The notes beneath the pieces are model-generated. The model ran no database searches. It had not been told where the DNA came from and worked only from the letters and a program-made list of their open reading frames with translations. From positions 1 through 64,000 of the forward strand of contig LT827125.1 in the NCBI GenBank assembly GCA_900169975.1: a stretch of 64,000 nt of DNA, in the 5' to 3' direction. Origin of the DNA: Pseudoflavonifractor sp. Marseille-P3106. Lineage in GTDB: Bacteria > Bacillota > Clostridia > Oscillospirales > Oscillospiraceae. The position numbers were made by a program, and so were the translations under genes. This document shows, piece by piece, positions 48,478 to 63,413 of this stretch. Position 1 is the stretch's first letter. The number at the start of each line of letters is the position of its first letter.

Positions 48478-48583
48478 TTTCTATACAATAACGTCGATTC
48501 TAACAGTACATAGCCAATTTAGCTTATTTGACACCGTTAATTACGGGCAAAGTATTGTGGAGAGGTAAGCGAGTGCGCTGTCC

Positions 48584-48645
<62 letters not shown>

Positions 48646-57490: not shown

Positions 57491-57699
57491 CACACTGCCT
57501 CCAAATGTAAAAGTAATTGAAGAATTTTATAATTATACTCTTCTTTAGATTATACCATAAAATCATGCGCAGGTAAAAAAAGTTGGTAGATTTCTGTAAG
57601 AAATTGACCTCCCGGAAGAACCGGCCGACAGCCGCTGGCCGTCTAATCTTGGCGGCTGTAAAAACGTCTCAAAAAGTGGAATTAAATAGATAGAACCTA

Positions 57700-57728
57700 T
57701 TGACAAAGTATGAAATTGATGGTATTAT
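57700..57728 (+). promoter_or_regulatory. Promoter of the sulfur operon leader
   Basis: TTGACA (57700-57705), 17 bases, TATTAT (57723-57728). The transcript should begin near 57735 and has a leader of about 360 bases before the first enzyme. Confidence 0.82.
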
Positions 57729-57775
57729 CCTTTCAACCTACTAAGTTGATTTGATTTAAGAAGGGAGAACGTATC

Positions 57776-57898
57776 ATGATGATCCCGTCTGTCAGCTGCA
57801 CCTTGTCTGTGGAAACGCGCATGTATCACATGTGCAAGTGTTGTTGCGCGCACAAACAGGATAAGTTCTCCATGATGACGAATCAGGCAAGACCATAG
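57776..57898 (+). CDS. Cysteine-rich leader peptide (40 residues)
   Basis: ATG 57776, AAGGGAG at 57762-57768. Has a Cys at 8 and a run MCKCCCAH at 19-26, so four Cys codons fall within five codons (57833-57847). Directly after them, GGATAAGTTCTCC (57859-57871) can pair with GGAGCTTATCC (57939-57949), which is part of the terminator that follows. A ribosome waiting for charged Cys-tRNA would leave that segment free. This is the usual design of amino-acid attenuation, here for cysteine ahead of cysteine/methionine genes. The peptide itself likely has no other role. Confidence 0.8.
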   Translation: MMIPSVSCTLSVETRMYHMCKCCCAHKQDKFSMMTNQARP

Positions 57899-57934
57899 GC
57901 TTTTGTGCCTGTAATCGTAATCTCATGCGATTTA

Positions 57935-57970
57935 CCGGGGAGCTTATCCAGGCTTCCCGGATTTCTTTTT
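57935..57970 (+). terminator. Attenuator terminator of the sulfur operon
   Basis: CCGGGGAGC (57935-57943) pairs with GCTTCCCGG (57952-57960, one G-T pair), then ATTTCTTTTT. Its left arm is shared with the antiterminator pairing to 57859-57871, so only one can form. Confidence 0.82.
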
Positions 57971-57984
57971 GGGGAGGAAACCCC

Positions 57985-58059
57985 ATGTATGATTTTGAAC
58001 GACTCATCAGAGACAGATGTCGTTTCGGGCGAATGTGCTGGGCGTGCATCCCCAGATGA
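57985..58059 (+). CDS. Second small leader peptide with three Cys (24 residues)
   Basis: ATG 57985 with GGGGAGG at 57971-57977, a strong site. Reads MYDFERLIRDRCRFGRMCWACIPR; Cys at 12, 18 and 21. It lies after the attenuator and ends 34 bases before the enzyme start. Its ribosome site could be closed by GGGG/CCCC pairing (57971-57984). Probably a second cysteine-sensing or coupling step. Too short to judge by codon use. Confidence 0.6.
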   Translation: MYDFERLIRDRCRFGRMCWACIPR

Positions 58060-58093
58060 CCTAACACGCATTAGCTTGAAAAACGAAAGGGAA

Positions 58094-59386
58094 ATGATGA
58101 TTATTCATAACTATAAATTCGAAACGCTTCAGCTCCATGTCGGTCAGGAGCGGCCTGATCCTGCCACCGATTCCCGTGCGGTTCCCATCTATCAGACAAC
58201 CTCCTATGTGTTCCGGGATTCCGGCCACGCGGCTGCCCGCTTTGGCCTGGCGGATGCAGGCAATATCTACGGCAGACTGACCAACTCCACGCAGGATGTG
58301 TTGGAAAAACGCATCGCAGCACTGGAAGGCGGCGTGGCGGCATTGGCACTGGCCTCCGGCGCAGCGGCCATCACCTACGCCATTGAGGCTGTGGCGCAGG
58401 CAGGCGACCACATCGTTGCACAGAAAACTATCTACGGCGGCAGCCATAATCTGCTGGAGCACACGATGCCCCGCTGCGGCATCACCACTACCTTTGTCAA
58501 TGCCCACGATCTCGCCGAAGTGGAAAACGCCATTCAGAAGAACACGAAGGCCATCTACCTGGAGACGCTGGGCAATCCGAACTCAGATATTCCCGATATC
58601 GACGCCGTCGCAGCCATCGCGCATAAGCACGGTCTGCCGCTGATCATCGACAATACCTTCGGCACACCGTACCTGATTCGCCCCATCGAGCACGGCGCGG
58701 ACATTGTGGTGCACTCCGCCACGAAGTTCATCGGCGGACATGGAACCACTCTGGGCGGTATCATTGTGGATTCCGGCAGGTTTGACTGGAAAGTCGGTGG
58801 GAAATACGCGCCCATCGCCGACCCGAATCCCAGCTATCACGGTGTCAGCTTTGCGGATGCGGCTGGATCAGCGGCGTTTGTGACCTACATCCGCGCTGTT
58901 CTGCTTCGTGACACTGGCGCGGCGATTTCGCCGTTCAATGCATTCCTGCTTTTGCAGGGGGTGGAAACATTGTCTCTCCGTCTGGAGCGCCACGCCGAGA
59001 ACACAAAGAAAGTGGTCGAGTATCTCACACGCCATCCCAAGGTTGCGCGCGTTAACCATCCGTCCCTGCCGAACCATCCCGATCACGCGCTTTATAAGAA
59101 ATATTTTCCCAATGGCGGGGCATCCATTTTCACTTTTGACATCAAGGGCGGTCGGGAGGAAGCGCATAGGTTTATCGACAATCTTGAGATTTTTTCGCTG
59201 CTTGCCAATGTGGCGGATGTGAAATCTCTGGTCATTCACCCGGCAACCACGACGCACTCCCAGTTGACCGAAGAGGAGCTGCTGGATCAGAGAATTCATC
59301 CCAGCACCGTCCGCCTGTCTATCGGCACGGAGCACATTGACGATATCATCGCCGATCTGGAACATGGTTTTGCCGCTTTGAAATAA
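58094..59386 (+). CDS. O-acetylhomoserine aminocarboxypropyltransferase (sulfhydrylase)
   Basis: 430 residues from ATG 58094 (58097 also possible; AAAGGG upstream). PLP enzyme of the Cys/Met metabolism family: SRAVPIYQTTSYVFRDSGHAAARFGL, YGRLTNSTQDVLEKRIAALEGG, and the PLP Lys in HSATKFIGGHG. The end HPATTTHSQL plus RLSIGTEHIDDI is typical of the OAH sulfhydrylase group, which makes homocysteine from O-acetylhomoserine and sulfide. First enzyme of the operon after the cysteine leader. Confidence 0.93.
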   Translation: MMIIHNYKFETLQLHVGQERPDPATDSRAVPIYQTTSYVFRDSGHAAARFGLADAGNIYGRLTNSTQDVLEKRIAALEGGVAALALASGAAAITYAIEAVAQAGDHIVAQKTIYGGSHNLLEHTMPRCGITTTFVNAHDLAEVENAIQKNTKAIYLETLGNPNSDIPDIDAVAAIAHKHGLPLIIDNTFGTPYLIRPIEHGADIVVHSATKFIGGHGTTLGGIIVDSGRFDWKVGGKYAPIADPNPSYHGVSFADAAGSAAFVTYIRAVLLRDTGAAISPFNAFLLLQGVETLSLRLERHAENTKKVVEYLTRHPKVARVNHPSLPNHPDHALYKKYFPNGGASIFTFDIKGGREEAHRFIDNLEIFSLLANVADVKSLVIHPATTTHSQLTEEELLDQRIHPSTVRLSIGTEHIDDIIADLEHGFAALK

Positions 59387-59497: not shown

Positions 59498-60430
59498 ATG
59501 CCTAATATTTATACTTCCGCAGATCAACTGATCGGCAAAACCCCTCTGTTGGAACTGACTCACATGGAAGAACGGTTGGATTTCAAGGCGAAGATTTTGG
59601 CAAAACTGGAATATTTCAATCCTGCGGGCTCAGTAAAAGATCGCATTGCCAAGGCGATGATTGATGACGCGGAAGCTTCGGGGCAACTGAAACCCGGCTC
59701 CGTTATCATCGAACCCACTTCCGGCAATACCGGTATTGGGCTTGCCTCGGTGGCCGCCGCAAGAGGATACCGTATCATTATCGTCATGCCGGAAACCATG
59801 TCTGTGGAGCGCCGCCAGTTGATGAAGGCGTATGGGGCGGAGTTGGTACTGACCGAGGGTTCAAAGGGCATGAAGGGGGCCATCGCAAAAGCGGAAGAAT
59901 TGGCGGCGGGAACGCCGAACAGTTTTATTCCCGGGCAGTTTGTGAATCCGGCCAATCCAAAGGCACATTTTGAAACCACTGGACCGGAAATCTGGGCAGA
60001 TACCGGCGGCAGAGTTGATTTCTTTGTTGCCGGTGTGGGTACCGGCGGTACGATTACCGGTGTGGGCGAGTTCTTGAAATCTAAAAATGGATCCATTAAG
60101 GTCGTGGCCGTTGAGCCGGAAAGTTCAGCTGTCCTTTCTACCGGCATTGCAGGCGCCCATAAGATTCAGGGCATTGGGGCAGGCTTTGTGCCAGATGTAC
60201 TGAATACGAGAGTCTACGATGAAATTGTCACGGTTTCCAATGACGATGCGTTTGCAACAGGCGGACAGATCGGCAGATTGGAGGGAATTTTAGTTGGCAT
60301 TTCTTCTGGCGCCGCTGTAAAGGCGGCCATTGAGCTTGCAAAGCGTCCGGAAAATGAGGGAAAAACCATTGTGGTTTTGCTTCCGGATACTGGTGACCGC
60401 TATTTGTCCACGCCTCTGTTTGCTGAATAA
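59498..60430 (+). CDS. cysK: Cysteine synthase (O-acetylserine sulfhydrylase)
   Basis: 310 residues, GAGGAG upstream. PLP Lys in [11 protein letters not shown] (near 44), phosphate loop [12 protein letters not shown], substrate loop [15 protein letters not shown] and C-terminal [13 protein letters not shown]. Converts O-acetylserine and sulfide to cysteine. 111 bases after the sulfhydrylase and under the same leader. A terminator follows, with later operon genes needing their own start or read-through. Confidence 0.96.
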
Positions 60431-61719: not shown

Positions 61720-62856
61720 ATGATCTATCTGGACTATGCGGCAAATGCGCCGGTGGAAGCACCGGTGCTGGATGCGTTTCTCACGGCGGAACAGACCTTT
61801 GTGGGCAATCCCAATTCCAACCACCCAGCCGGTCAAGCAGCACTGGCGGCAATGGAACGGGCAACAGAGTCCATTGCCGCCCTGCTGGGGGCGGAACCGA
61901 ATGAGATCATTTACACTTCCGGGGCCACAGAAGCCAACAATCTTGCCATAAAAGGCATTGCCTACGCCAAGCGGCACACGGGGCATCATATTATTTCCAC
62001 ACCATTGGAGCACGCTTCTGTCGGTGGCAGCCTTACTTACCTGCAGGAACAGGGATGGGAAATCGACTTTCTGGACATTACCCGGGACGGAACGGCGGAT
62101 CTGCAGCAACTGCGGGAACTGCTGCGGCAGGACACGGTGCTGGCGGCCATCTGCGCAGTAGACAGTGAACTGGGTACGATCCAGCCATTAGACAAGATCA
62201 AGGCCATTTTGAAGGATTATCCAAACTGTCATCTGCACATTGATGCCACCCAGGCCTTTGGCCGTATTCCGGTTTCTTTTGCAGGAGTGGATACATTGAG
62301 CCTGGCGCCCCACAAGTTTGGCGGACTCAATGGCAGCGGCCTGCTGCTGAAACGGAAAAACCTTGTGCTGGAGCCACAGCTGCATGGCGGCGGGAGTACC
62401 ACCATCTACCGCAGCGGAACCCCTGCCGCCGCGCTGGCCGTTTCCATTGAAACAGCTCTGCGACTGGCTCTGCAGCACCGGGCAGAACGATTCGAGCAGG
62501 CCGTGCTGTACAACCAAATGCTGCGGGAGTCGCTGATCCGTTATACCGGTGTCCGCATCAACAGCCCGGAAAATTCTGTGCCTCAAATTCTGAACCTGAG
62601 TGTACAGAATGTGCGAGGAACCGTCTTTCAAAGGATGTTGGCCGAACGAGGGGTCTGCGTATCTGTTAAATCAGCCTGCTCGGCCCAGGGGACACCTTCC
62701 GGGGCCGTTTTTGCGGTCAGCAGAGACCGGAAAAACGCTCTGTCATCGTGGCGCGTCAGCATCAGCCACCGAACCACAGAGGACCAACTGTCGGCCTTCC
62801 TGCAAATTTTTGACGATTGTTACCGGAAGCTGACTGGGAAAGAAGGCGCCACATGA
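61720..62856 (+). CDS. Cysteine desulfurase (NifS/IscS-like)
   Basis: 378 residues. Opens MIYLDYAANAPV; PLP Lys in SLAPHKFGGLNG (near 206); catalytic Cys in SVKSACSAQG (near 325). It takes sulfur from L-cysteine and passes it as persulfide, here most likely to MnmA, whose gene ends three bases earlier. The stop overlaps the next gene (ATGA). Confidence 0.93.
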   Translation: MIYLDYAANAPVEAPVLDAFLTAEQTFVGNPNSNHPAGQAALAAMERATESIAALLGAEPNEIIYTSGATEANNLAIKGIAYAKRHTGHHIISTPLEHASVGGSLTYLQEQGWEIDFLDITRDGTADLQQLRELLRQDTVLAAICAVDSELGTIQPLDKIKAILKDYPNCHLHIDATQAFGRIPVSFAGVDTLSLAPHKFGGLNGSGLLLKRKNLVLEPQLHGGGSTTIYRSGTPAAALAVSIETALRLALQHRAERFEQAVLYNQMLRESLIRYTGVRINSPENSVPQILNLSVQNVRGTVFQRMLAERGVCVSVKSACSAQGTPSGAVFAVSRDRKNALSSWRVSISHRTTEDQLSAFLQIFDDCYRKLTGKEGAT

Positions 62857-63413
62857 GCCGCGAGCTGACGCAACTGAAGCTGATCGAGCGCAGTATTCTC
62901 AAAAAGTACCGCAAAGAACTGTGGCGGCCATTTACATACGCCGTCAAGCGATACGAACTGATCCAGCCGGGAGATAAAATCGCGCTGGGCCATCATTTCA
63001 ATGATGTGGTGGAAATGACCGTGATAGGGATGTTTTGCGGTTCTCAGTTGCAGGTCGTGCCGCCCAAGCTTCACAGCACGAACTTTGAGGGAATGGAATT
63101 GATCCGTCCGCTTTACTGCGCCCACGAGGAGGATATTCTGGCGTGGAAGCGATACGATGAGCTGGAGTTTATCCAGTGCGCCTGCCGATTCACAGAAAAC
63201 TGCGCCATGCGCGATAAAGGCGGCGGAGGTTCCAAGCGGCAGGAGGTCAAGACGCTCCTGAAGCGGTTGATGCGAGACAGTCCCAATATAGAGAAGAGTA
63301 TCTTCAACAGCATCCATGCTGTCAGGCTGGGTACTATGGTGGCGCACAAACACAATGGGGTATTTTACACCTTCCTGGATGGCCACAATATAAACAAGAT
63401 AAACAATTCCTGA
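62853..63413 (+). pseudogene. ttcA: TtcA-like protein with the ATP-binding half deleted in frame
   Basis: 186 residues from ATG 62853. The start (SRELTQLKLIERSILKKYRKELWRPFTYAVKRYELIQPGDKIA) and the end (ALGHHFNDVVEM, PKLHSTNFEGMELIRPLY, EFIQCACRFTE) are those of the TtcA/TilS-like tRNA thiolation family. Between GDKIA and LGHHF the family has about 100 residues with the SGGKDS PP-loop and a CxxC pair; all are missing. The open frame is kept. It cannot bind ATP as usual, so it is called a pseudogene, though a remnant function is possible. Junction near 62975-62985. Confidence 0.8.

Follow-up and report, generated by a model that had tools for sequence, protein, structure and literature searches.

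Two probable ribosome-operated switches ahead of metY in Pseudoflavonifractor sp. Marseille-P3106, the second from an apparently undescribed CGA-ATG leader family of Clostridia

Organization of the metY locus

The window, i.e. the whole stretch of 64,000 nucleotides that was analysed, carries metY and cysK in a row that continues with mnmA, a cysteine desulfurase-like gene, a ttcA-like ORF and a tcdA-like ORF. Two small ORFs lie between the promoter and metY and are probably ribosome-operated switches (Table 1). Both the promoter and the identity of the two downstream genes had been proposed in an earlier, sequence-only reading of this DNA, and both agree with our results: the promoter matches at 11 of 12 positions, and both gene products score over the cut-offs of their models. 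Four promoter-like sites were found in the 801-base region, where shuffles expect 1.2. Half sites resembling AACCTACT occur near the transcription start at 57735-57758 and at other metY promoters, perhaps as a repressor site; the palindrome near promoters is weak overall (35 of 194 loci, against 25 in shuffles). The ttcA-like ORF (62817-63413) is missing its PP-loop part and is matched by the TtcA model over positions 145-257 of 295 only, and another, better TtcA-family match is present elsewhere in the genome.

Table 1 Features of the metY locus, in window coordinates
Feature	Position	Strand	Evidence
Sigma-70-type promoter, TTGACA-17-TATTAT	57700..57728	+	11/12 matches; TG ahead of second hexamer
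SD of leader 1, GGGAG	57763..57767	+	Read from sequence
Leader peptide 1, MMIPSVSCTLSVETRMYHMCKCCCAHKQDKFSMMTNQARP*	57776..57898	+	ORF with SD upstream
C-K-C-C-C codons of leader 1, TGC AAG TGT TGT TGC	57833..57847	+	Sequence
Antiterminator left strand, GGATAAGTTCTCC	57859..57871	+	-22.4 kcal/mol; 5/5000 shuffles
Antiterminator right strand (terminator left arm and loop)	57937..57949	+	Pairing with 57859-57871
Intrinsic terminator with T-rich tail	57935..57970	+	-19.1 kcal/mol
SD of leader 2, GGGGAGG, within small hairpin 57970-57985	57971..57977	+	Sequence
Leader peptide 2, MYDFERLIRDRCRFGRMCWACIPR*, CGA-ATG leader family member	57985..58059	+	ORF and codon pair
CGA-ATG codon pair (Arg-Met), then TGC (Cys)	58030..58035	+	In frame in leader 2
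Hairpin directly 3' of CGA-ATG pair	58037..58075	+	SD opening energy 7.9 free, 3.7 masked
metY, O-acetylhomoserine sulfhydrylase	58094..59386	+	TIGR01326, 629 bits, cut-off 495.1
cysK, cysteine synthase A	59498..60430	+	TIGR01139, 449.3 bits, cut-off 350.95

Leader 1 has the anatomy of a transcription attenuator

The first ORF had been taken for the leader peptide of a complete cysteine attenuator, and its main parts were found again: the ORF contains the CKCCC run with an SD sequence upstream, and the terminator shares positions 57937-57949 with the antiterminator. The terminator stem-loop (57935-57960) has 11 pairs, a loop of 4 and the tail ATTTCTTTTT, with an energy of -19.1 kcal/mol. The pairing proposed for the antiterminator stands, although not as 11 bp with a 2-base bulge; it consists of 13 continuous pairs between 57859-57871 and 57937-57949, two of them G-U, and when the leader segment was dinucleotide-shuffled 5000 times, its -22.4 kcal/mol was reached 5 times. 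An SD-led short ORF ahead of a terminator, together with an antiterminator which excludes that terminator and exceeds chance in the shuffle test, supports a transcription-attenuator anatomy for this region. A ribosome held at C-K-C-C-C would leave 57859-57871 free, the 13-bp antiterminator would form, and RNA polymerase would read on. A weaker pairing is available between the SD region (57764-57770) and 57865-57871 (45 of 3000 shuffles). Taken by itself, the Cys run is no rarity: the genome has 21 occurrences of TGYNNNTGYTGYTGY, compared with 14 for the reversed control.

The expectation that the Cys run and the pairings would be conserved in relatives failed. Among 16 genomes of the genus, the 404-base region 57690-58093 is matched by the window's own genome alone, and by none of the other 15. 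Of 200 family genomes, 10 contain the pattern ATGTGYMRNTGYTGYTGY, the window's included, and the stretches examined around the 9 other places have no metY match. No comparable Cys leader was seen at the metY loci first examined from the family, apart from cases belonging to the second leader family described below. Leader 1 is private to this genome among the relatives examined. Of the attenuator as proposed, the anatomy holds beyond chance, while its conservation does not, and a second leader had been overlooked.

Leader 1 resembles attenuators of the trp/his type in having a short leader ORF followed by exclusive antiterminator and terminator structures. Mycobacteria are said to use polycysteine short-ORF attenuators, in work by Canestrari from 2020. 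Actinobacterial cys leaders are on record in passages of PMC1262725 and, like the mycobacterial ones, are Cys-rich ORFs before sulfur genes; both groups are leaderless or have no terminators, whereas the ORFs of the window are led by SD sequences and leader 1 has an intrinsic terminator. The uORFC-8-2 element before cysS in Rhodobacterales, for which passages of PMC8632094 propose ribosome-mediated attenuation, has tandem Cys codons and a terminator as leader 1 does, but belongs to another gene and another phylum. Cys-rich leaders had been regarded in the earlier reading as known mainly from actinobacteria; they are on record outside that group too, in Rhodobacterales (PMC8632094).

Leader 2 belongs to a family defined by an in-frame CGA-ATG pair

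The second ORF, located between the leader 1 terminator and metY, contains the codon pair CGA-ATG in frame. Short ORFs with this in-frame pair were found in 108 of 192 metY upstream regions of Clostridia, the other 84 loci, five with cysK first among them, being without this leader. These 192 represent the upper-ranked part of the metY matches, down to approximately 60% identity, and not the whole set; L023 and L401 (too short) and L398 (own paralog) were left out of the counts. Other Arg codons before ATG are few in the same regions (CGT 5, CGC 6, CGG 1, AGG 2 and AGA 0, i.e. 14 locus counts). In the first 138 regions, from the family and class samples, 82 have an SD-like sequence and a short ORF with in-frame CGA-ATG, where mono-shuffles give an expectation of 1.3, and the other codons are represented by CGT 4, CGC 2, CGG 1, AGG 1 and AGA 0. 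The further 54 family loci gave CGA 26, CGC 4, CGT 1 and AGG 1. Judged by ORF and codon evidence, a conserved leader predicted to be translated thus lies directly before metY.

In its typical form, the leader is a small ORF ending in NFRxGRM, often with a Cys added, 20-150 bases before metY. The core N-aromatic-R-x-G-R-M is found in 72 of the 108 leaders, and the 36 others still have CGA-ATG, with endings such as SRMC, DRM*, TRMC, ERMC and CCRM. Arg-Met is followed by Cys in 45 leaders, by a stop in 28 and by another residue in 35, and a Cys occurs within 8 codons after the pair in 55 of the 108. In leader 2 of the window the residues are DRCRFGRM, a departure from the core, and the strict motif does not match it. 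The first Arg of the core uses all six codons (AGA 16, CGA 13, CGT 13, CGC 12, CGG 10, AGG 7 and one Lys among the 72 leaders), so that the bias towards CGA is local to the second Arg. An any-codon search for NFRxGRM, which serves as a control since it does not presuppose CGA (Ser codons were admitted too), found 48 places in 391 class genomes, 25 of them with CGA by our own count. Among 30 such loci examined, metY follows in 14 of the 17 CGA cases, versus 0 of the 13 with other codons; in L069, one of the three CGA cases without metY, the leader precedes a lipoprotein ORF. At L392 (genome G085), approximately 90 bases before metY, CGAATG has become CGATG and the Met after NFRSGR is lost; this leader is a natural variant or a decaying copy.

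Within the class set, leaders are spread over 23 family labels (hand count). None was found in the stretch examined upstream of the cysK-first operons L018, L021, L029, L045 and L131, and there was no match in plasmids. Pfam and NCBIfam gave no relevant match to the leader peptides, the single irrelevant one having an E-value of 0.16; short peptides are hard for such models. A word search of open-licence papers found no report of a CGA-ATG leader or of its motif strings, and this family of Clostridia is apparently undescribed.

Targets, distribution and absence of known riboswitches

A strict-motif scan of named genomes gave at least 120 stretches, at least 119 of which contain the matches read, at least 120 in number. 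Among the matches listed, the next gene is metY in at least 96, MetQ-like in at least 13 and MetN-like in at least 1 (L270), with at least 1 sulfonate-type permease (L294), at least 1 corrinoid-methyltransferase-like gene (L236) and at least 1 ambiguous case (L213); at least 7 have no ORF in reach. The MetQ-like call means similarity to L197, and the four that were checked match PF03180. These targets of the MetQ/NlpA lipoprotein type (L197, L201, L226, L186 and nine others among the matches listed) place methionine uptake within the regulon. The targets of the conserved second leader are methionine genes. Where titles are shown, the matches listed are nearly all from Clostridia, the exceptions being L208 (Erysipelatoclostridium) and L236, a Treponema bin, outside Firmicutes by title, in which a type-1 leader (see below) precedes the corrinoid-methyltransferase-like gene, of the URO-D fold family. 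In a sample of 398 genomes from the phylum, the strict motif was found in 0; the sample includes 15 rows of the class, one of them the window's own genome with its departing leader.

At 77 metY loci, and also in the window, Rfam matched neither a T-box nor a SAM riboswitch before metY at the gathering threshold. A SAM riboswitch is present on the minus strand of L007 (817-923), a family genome locus with an unrelated MCKCCC match and without metY. In Clostridioides difficile, according to a passage of PMC11477304, SAM-I riboswitches precede metY-metA, metNLQ and a methionine-binding lipoprotein gene, i.e. the same target genes as those of the CGA-ATG leaders; they differ from these leaders in being metabolite-binding RNAs.

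The CGA codon and its tRNA

The tRNA-Arg anticodons found in the window's genome are acg, ccg, tct and cct, and none with tcg was found there, which leaves ICG as the expected reader of CGA. In the longest ORFs (metY) of 59 loci, 3.0% of the Arg codons are CGA; for 42 long ORFs of the window the share is 7.1%. At 48545-48642 of the window, ARAGORN calls a 98-base tRNA-Arg(ccg) for which Rfam gives no report at the gathering score. In yeast, pairs containing CGA such as CGA-AUA are described as slow, conserved and tied to I-A wobble; CGA-AUG is not named in the passages concerned with these pairs (PMC6379720).

Two output forms around the codon pair

Among 82 leaders, 13 are accompanied by a terminator ahead of metY. 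In 8 of these (type 2), a strand after CGA pairs with the terminator left arm, starting at the 12th base counted from the C of CGA (the 13th in L095). The other 5 (L086, L090, L115, L129 and L169) have no such antiterminator, and in L090 the strand is itself a terminator arm, which would reverse the direction of the switch. The alignment of type-2 sequences comprises these 8 and nine more that were chosen partly by the antiterminator motif and for this reason add nothing to the spacing evidence. Over the 17 sequences the antiterminator helix is 98.2% paired, with three pairs changed on both sides, and neither its pairing percentage nor its covariation score was reached in any of 500 shuffles. 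Antiterminator and terminator are both stable in 16 of the 17 as measured; the remaining one, L030, was mis-anchored, and its terminator is visible separately. In L095 the leader stops directly after RMR, and a ribosome at that stop would cover the strand left free by one at CGA-AUG.

Type-1 leaders, to which that of the window belongs, have no terminator, and the RNA that follows CGA-AUG can form a helix in the direction of the metY SD. The SD pairing is clear in a minority of cases: the helix falls within the best 5 of 100 shuffles in 21 of 85 leaders, compared with 7 of 76 in the control. With the ribosome footprint taken as -12 to +15, a ribosome-sized mask of 28 bases was placed at CGA-AUG. 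The energy of opening the SD drops by 2.37 on average, compared with 0.87 for masks elsewhere (60 of 85 leaders); the Wilcoxon p of 1.5e-6 is too small, since the sequences are related. Certain control masks are equally or more effective in freeing the SD. This includes the window, where the CGA-ATG mask lowers the opening energy from 7.9 to 3.7 kcal/mol and control masks give 5.9 on average and 1.9 at best. Two further candidates were rejected. Type-1 helices starting exactly at base +6 are an artefact of the segment cut point, and frameshift coupling to metY, considered because the other two frames end near its start in 19 and 18 of 82 leaders, has no clear excess over what frequent stops give by chance, as judged without a formal test.

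Interpretation

We lean slightly towards two ribosome-mediated switches in series before metY, the second from the CGA-AUG family and the first an additional cysteine-run attenuator that would lie upstream of it in this genome. The rare CGA, which only tRNA-Arg(ICG) would read, through I-A wobble, would slow the ribosome just before AUG and, in many leaders, a following UGY; a shortage of charged Met-tRNA, or of Cys-tRNA, would then keep the ribosome at CGA-AUG. In type 1, the form of the window, the stalled ribosome would free the metY SD, whereas in type 2 the antiterminator strand would begin about at its leading edge and pair with the terminator left arm. A stall would mean ON in both, and metY would be on under methionine or cysteine shortage. 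L095 fits this direction and L090 does not; it also counts against the type-2 scheme that a ribosome whose P site holds CGA would already reach over the initial few bases of the strand. The 84 metY loci lacking the family leader, and the absence of leader 1 from the relatives examined, weigh against the reading as a whole. Whereas the ORFs, codon bias, gene association and exclusive pairings are read directly from the genomes, we infer from them that the leaders are translated, that ribosomes stall, which amino acid is the signal and in which direction the switch turns. More specifically, it is possible, though short of an even chance, that the invariant CGA-AUG is a synonymous-codon sensor, slow by I-A wobble, which gauges the supply of methionine (and of cysteine through the next codon) and drives two kinds of RNA switch before metY and the genes of methionine uptake, in the place taken by SAM riboswitches in relatives. 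Such a family would differ from trp/his-type attenuators, which it resembles in its type 2, by having one invariant pair and no run of regulated codons. Type 1 recalls translational attenuators of the erm type, in that a ribosome stalled in the leader would make the SD of the downstream gene accessible, but involves metabolic genes and no antibiotic, and its SD pairing is clear only in a minority.

Several other explanations were weighed. The nascent peptide (LLRxNFRxGRM) could itself arrest the ribosome together with a metabolite (SAM, methionine or cysteine), the codon tuning the timing. The core residues are kept in 72 of 108 leaders while their Asn and Phe codons vary freely (AAC 29 and AAT 21, TTC 37 and TTT 13, n = 50), so the peptide itself is under selection, and the stop directly after Met in 28 leaders also points this way. 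Arrest alone does not explain an invariant synonymous codon, however, nor the 36 leaders in which CGA-ATG is present without the core, and we regard it as rather unlikely. That CGAAUG is an RNA binding site or pairing motif and not a codon pair is very improbable: the hexamer is invariant while the base preceding it is free (GGA 27, GGG 13, GGT 7 and GGC 3), but among the first 138 loci 86 carry it regardless of frame, and in 82 of these it is in frame within a short ORF.

If the cysteine attenuator alone mattered, leader 2 would be a bystander in the window's genome, as its departure from the core sequence and the complete, beyond-chance anatomy of leader 1 might suggest. Leader 2 nevertheless has an SD and carries CGA-ATG-TGC in frame, and it sits before metY at the position usual for the 107 other loci, while leader 1 is the one without a relative among the genomes examined, and this reading appears improbable. 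The least credible proposal is that the leader senses tRNA thiolation instead of Met charging, s2C32 made by TtcA blocking the reading of CGA by tRNA-Arg(ICG). It draws on a passage of PMC5372741, according to which tRNA-Arg(ICG) with s2C32 does not bind CGA, on one of PMC5372745, in which the sulfur of s2C32 comes from cysteine, and on the ttcA-like ORF in the gene row. It would need a stall to mean OFF, that ORF lacks the PP-loop part, and the TtcA cut-off was reached in 0 of 391 class genomes. Seven leader-bearing genomes (G235, G288, G252, G276, G386, G324 and G345) have no TtcA-family match at all, and TtcA with s2C32 was rejected as the general signal.

The cysteine attenuator of a single genome is best read together with what follows just behind it. 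If the proposed reading of the second leader is true, many gut Clostridia would control methionine synthesis and uptake by translation of a leader and not by a SAM riboswitch or T-box. With two output forms sharing one stall site, where the ribosome edge lies can be tested directly. On the same reading, a single rare synonymous codon, conserved across 23 family labels, would be the heart of a metabolic sensor.
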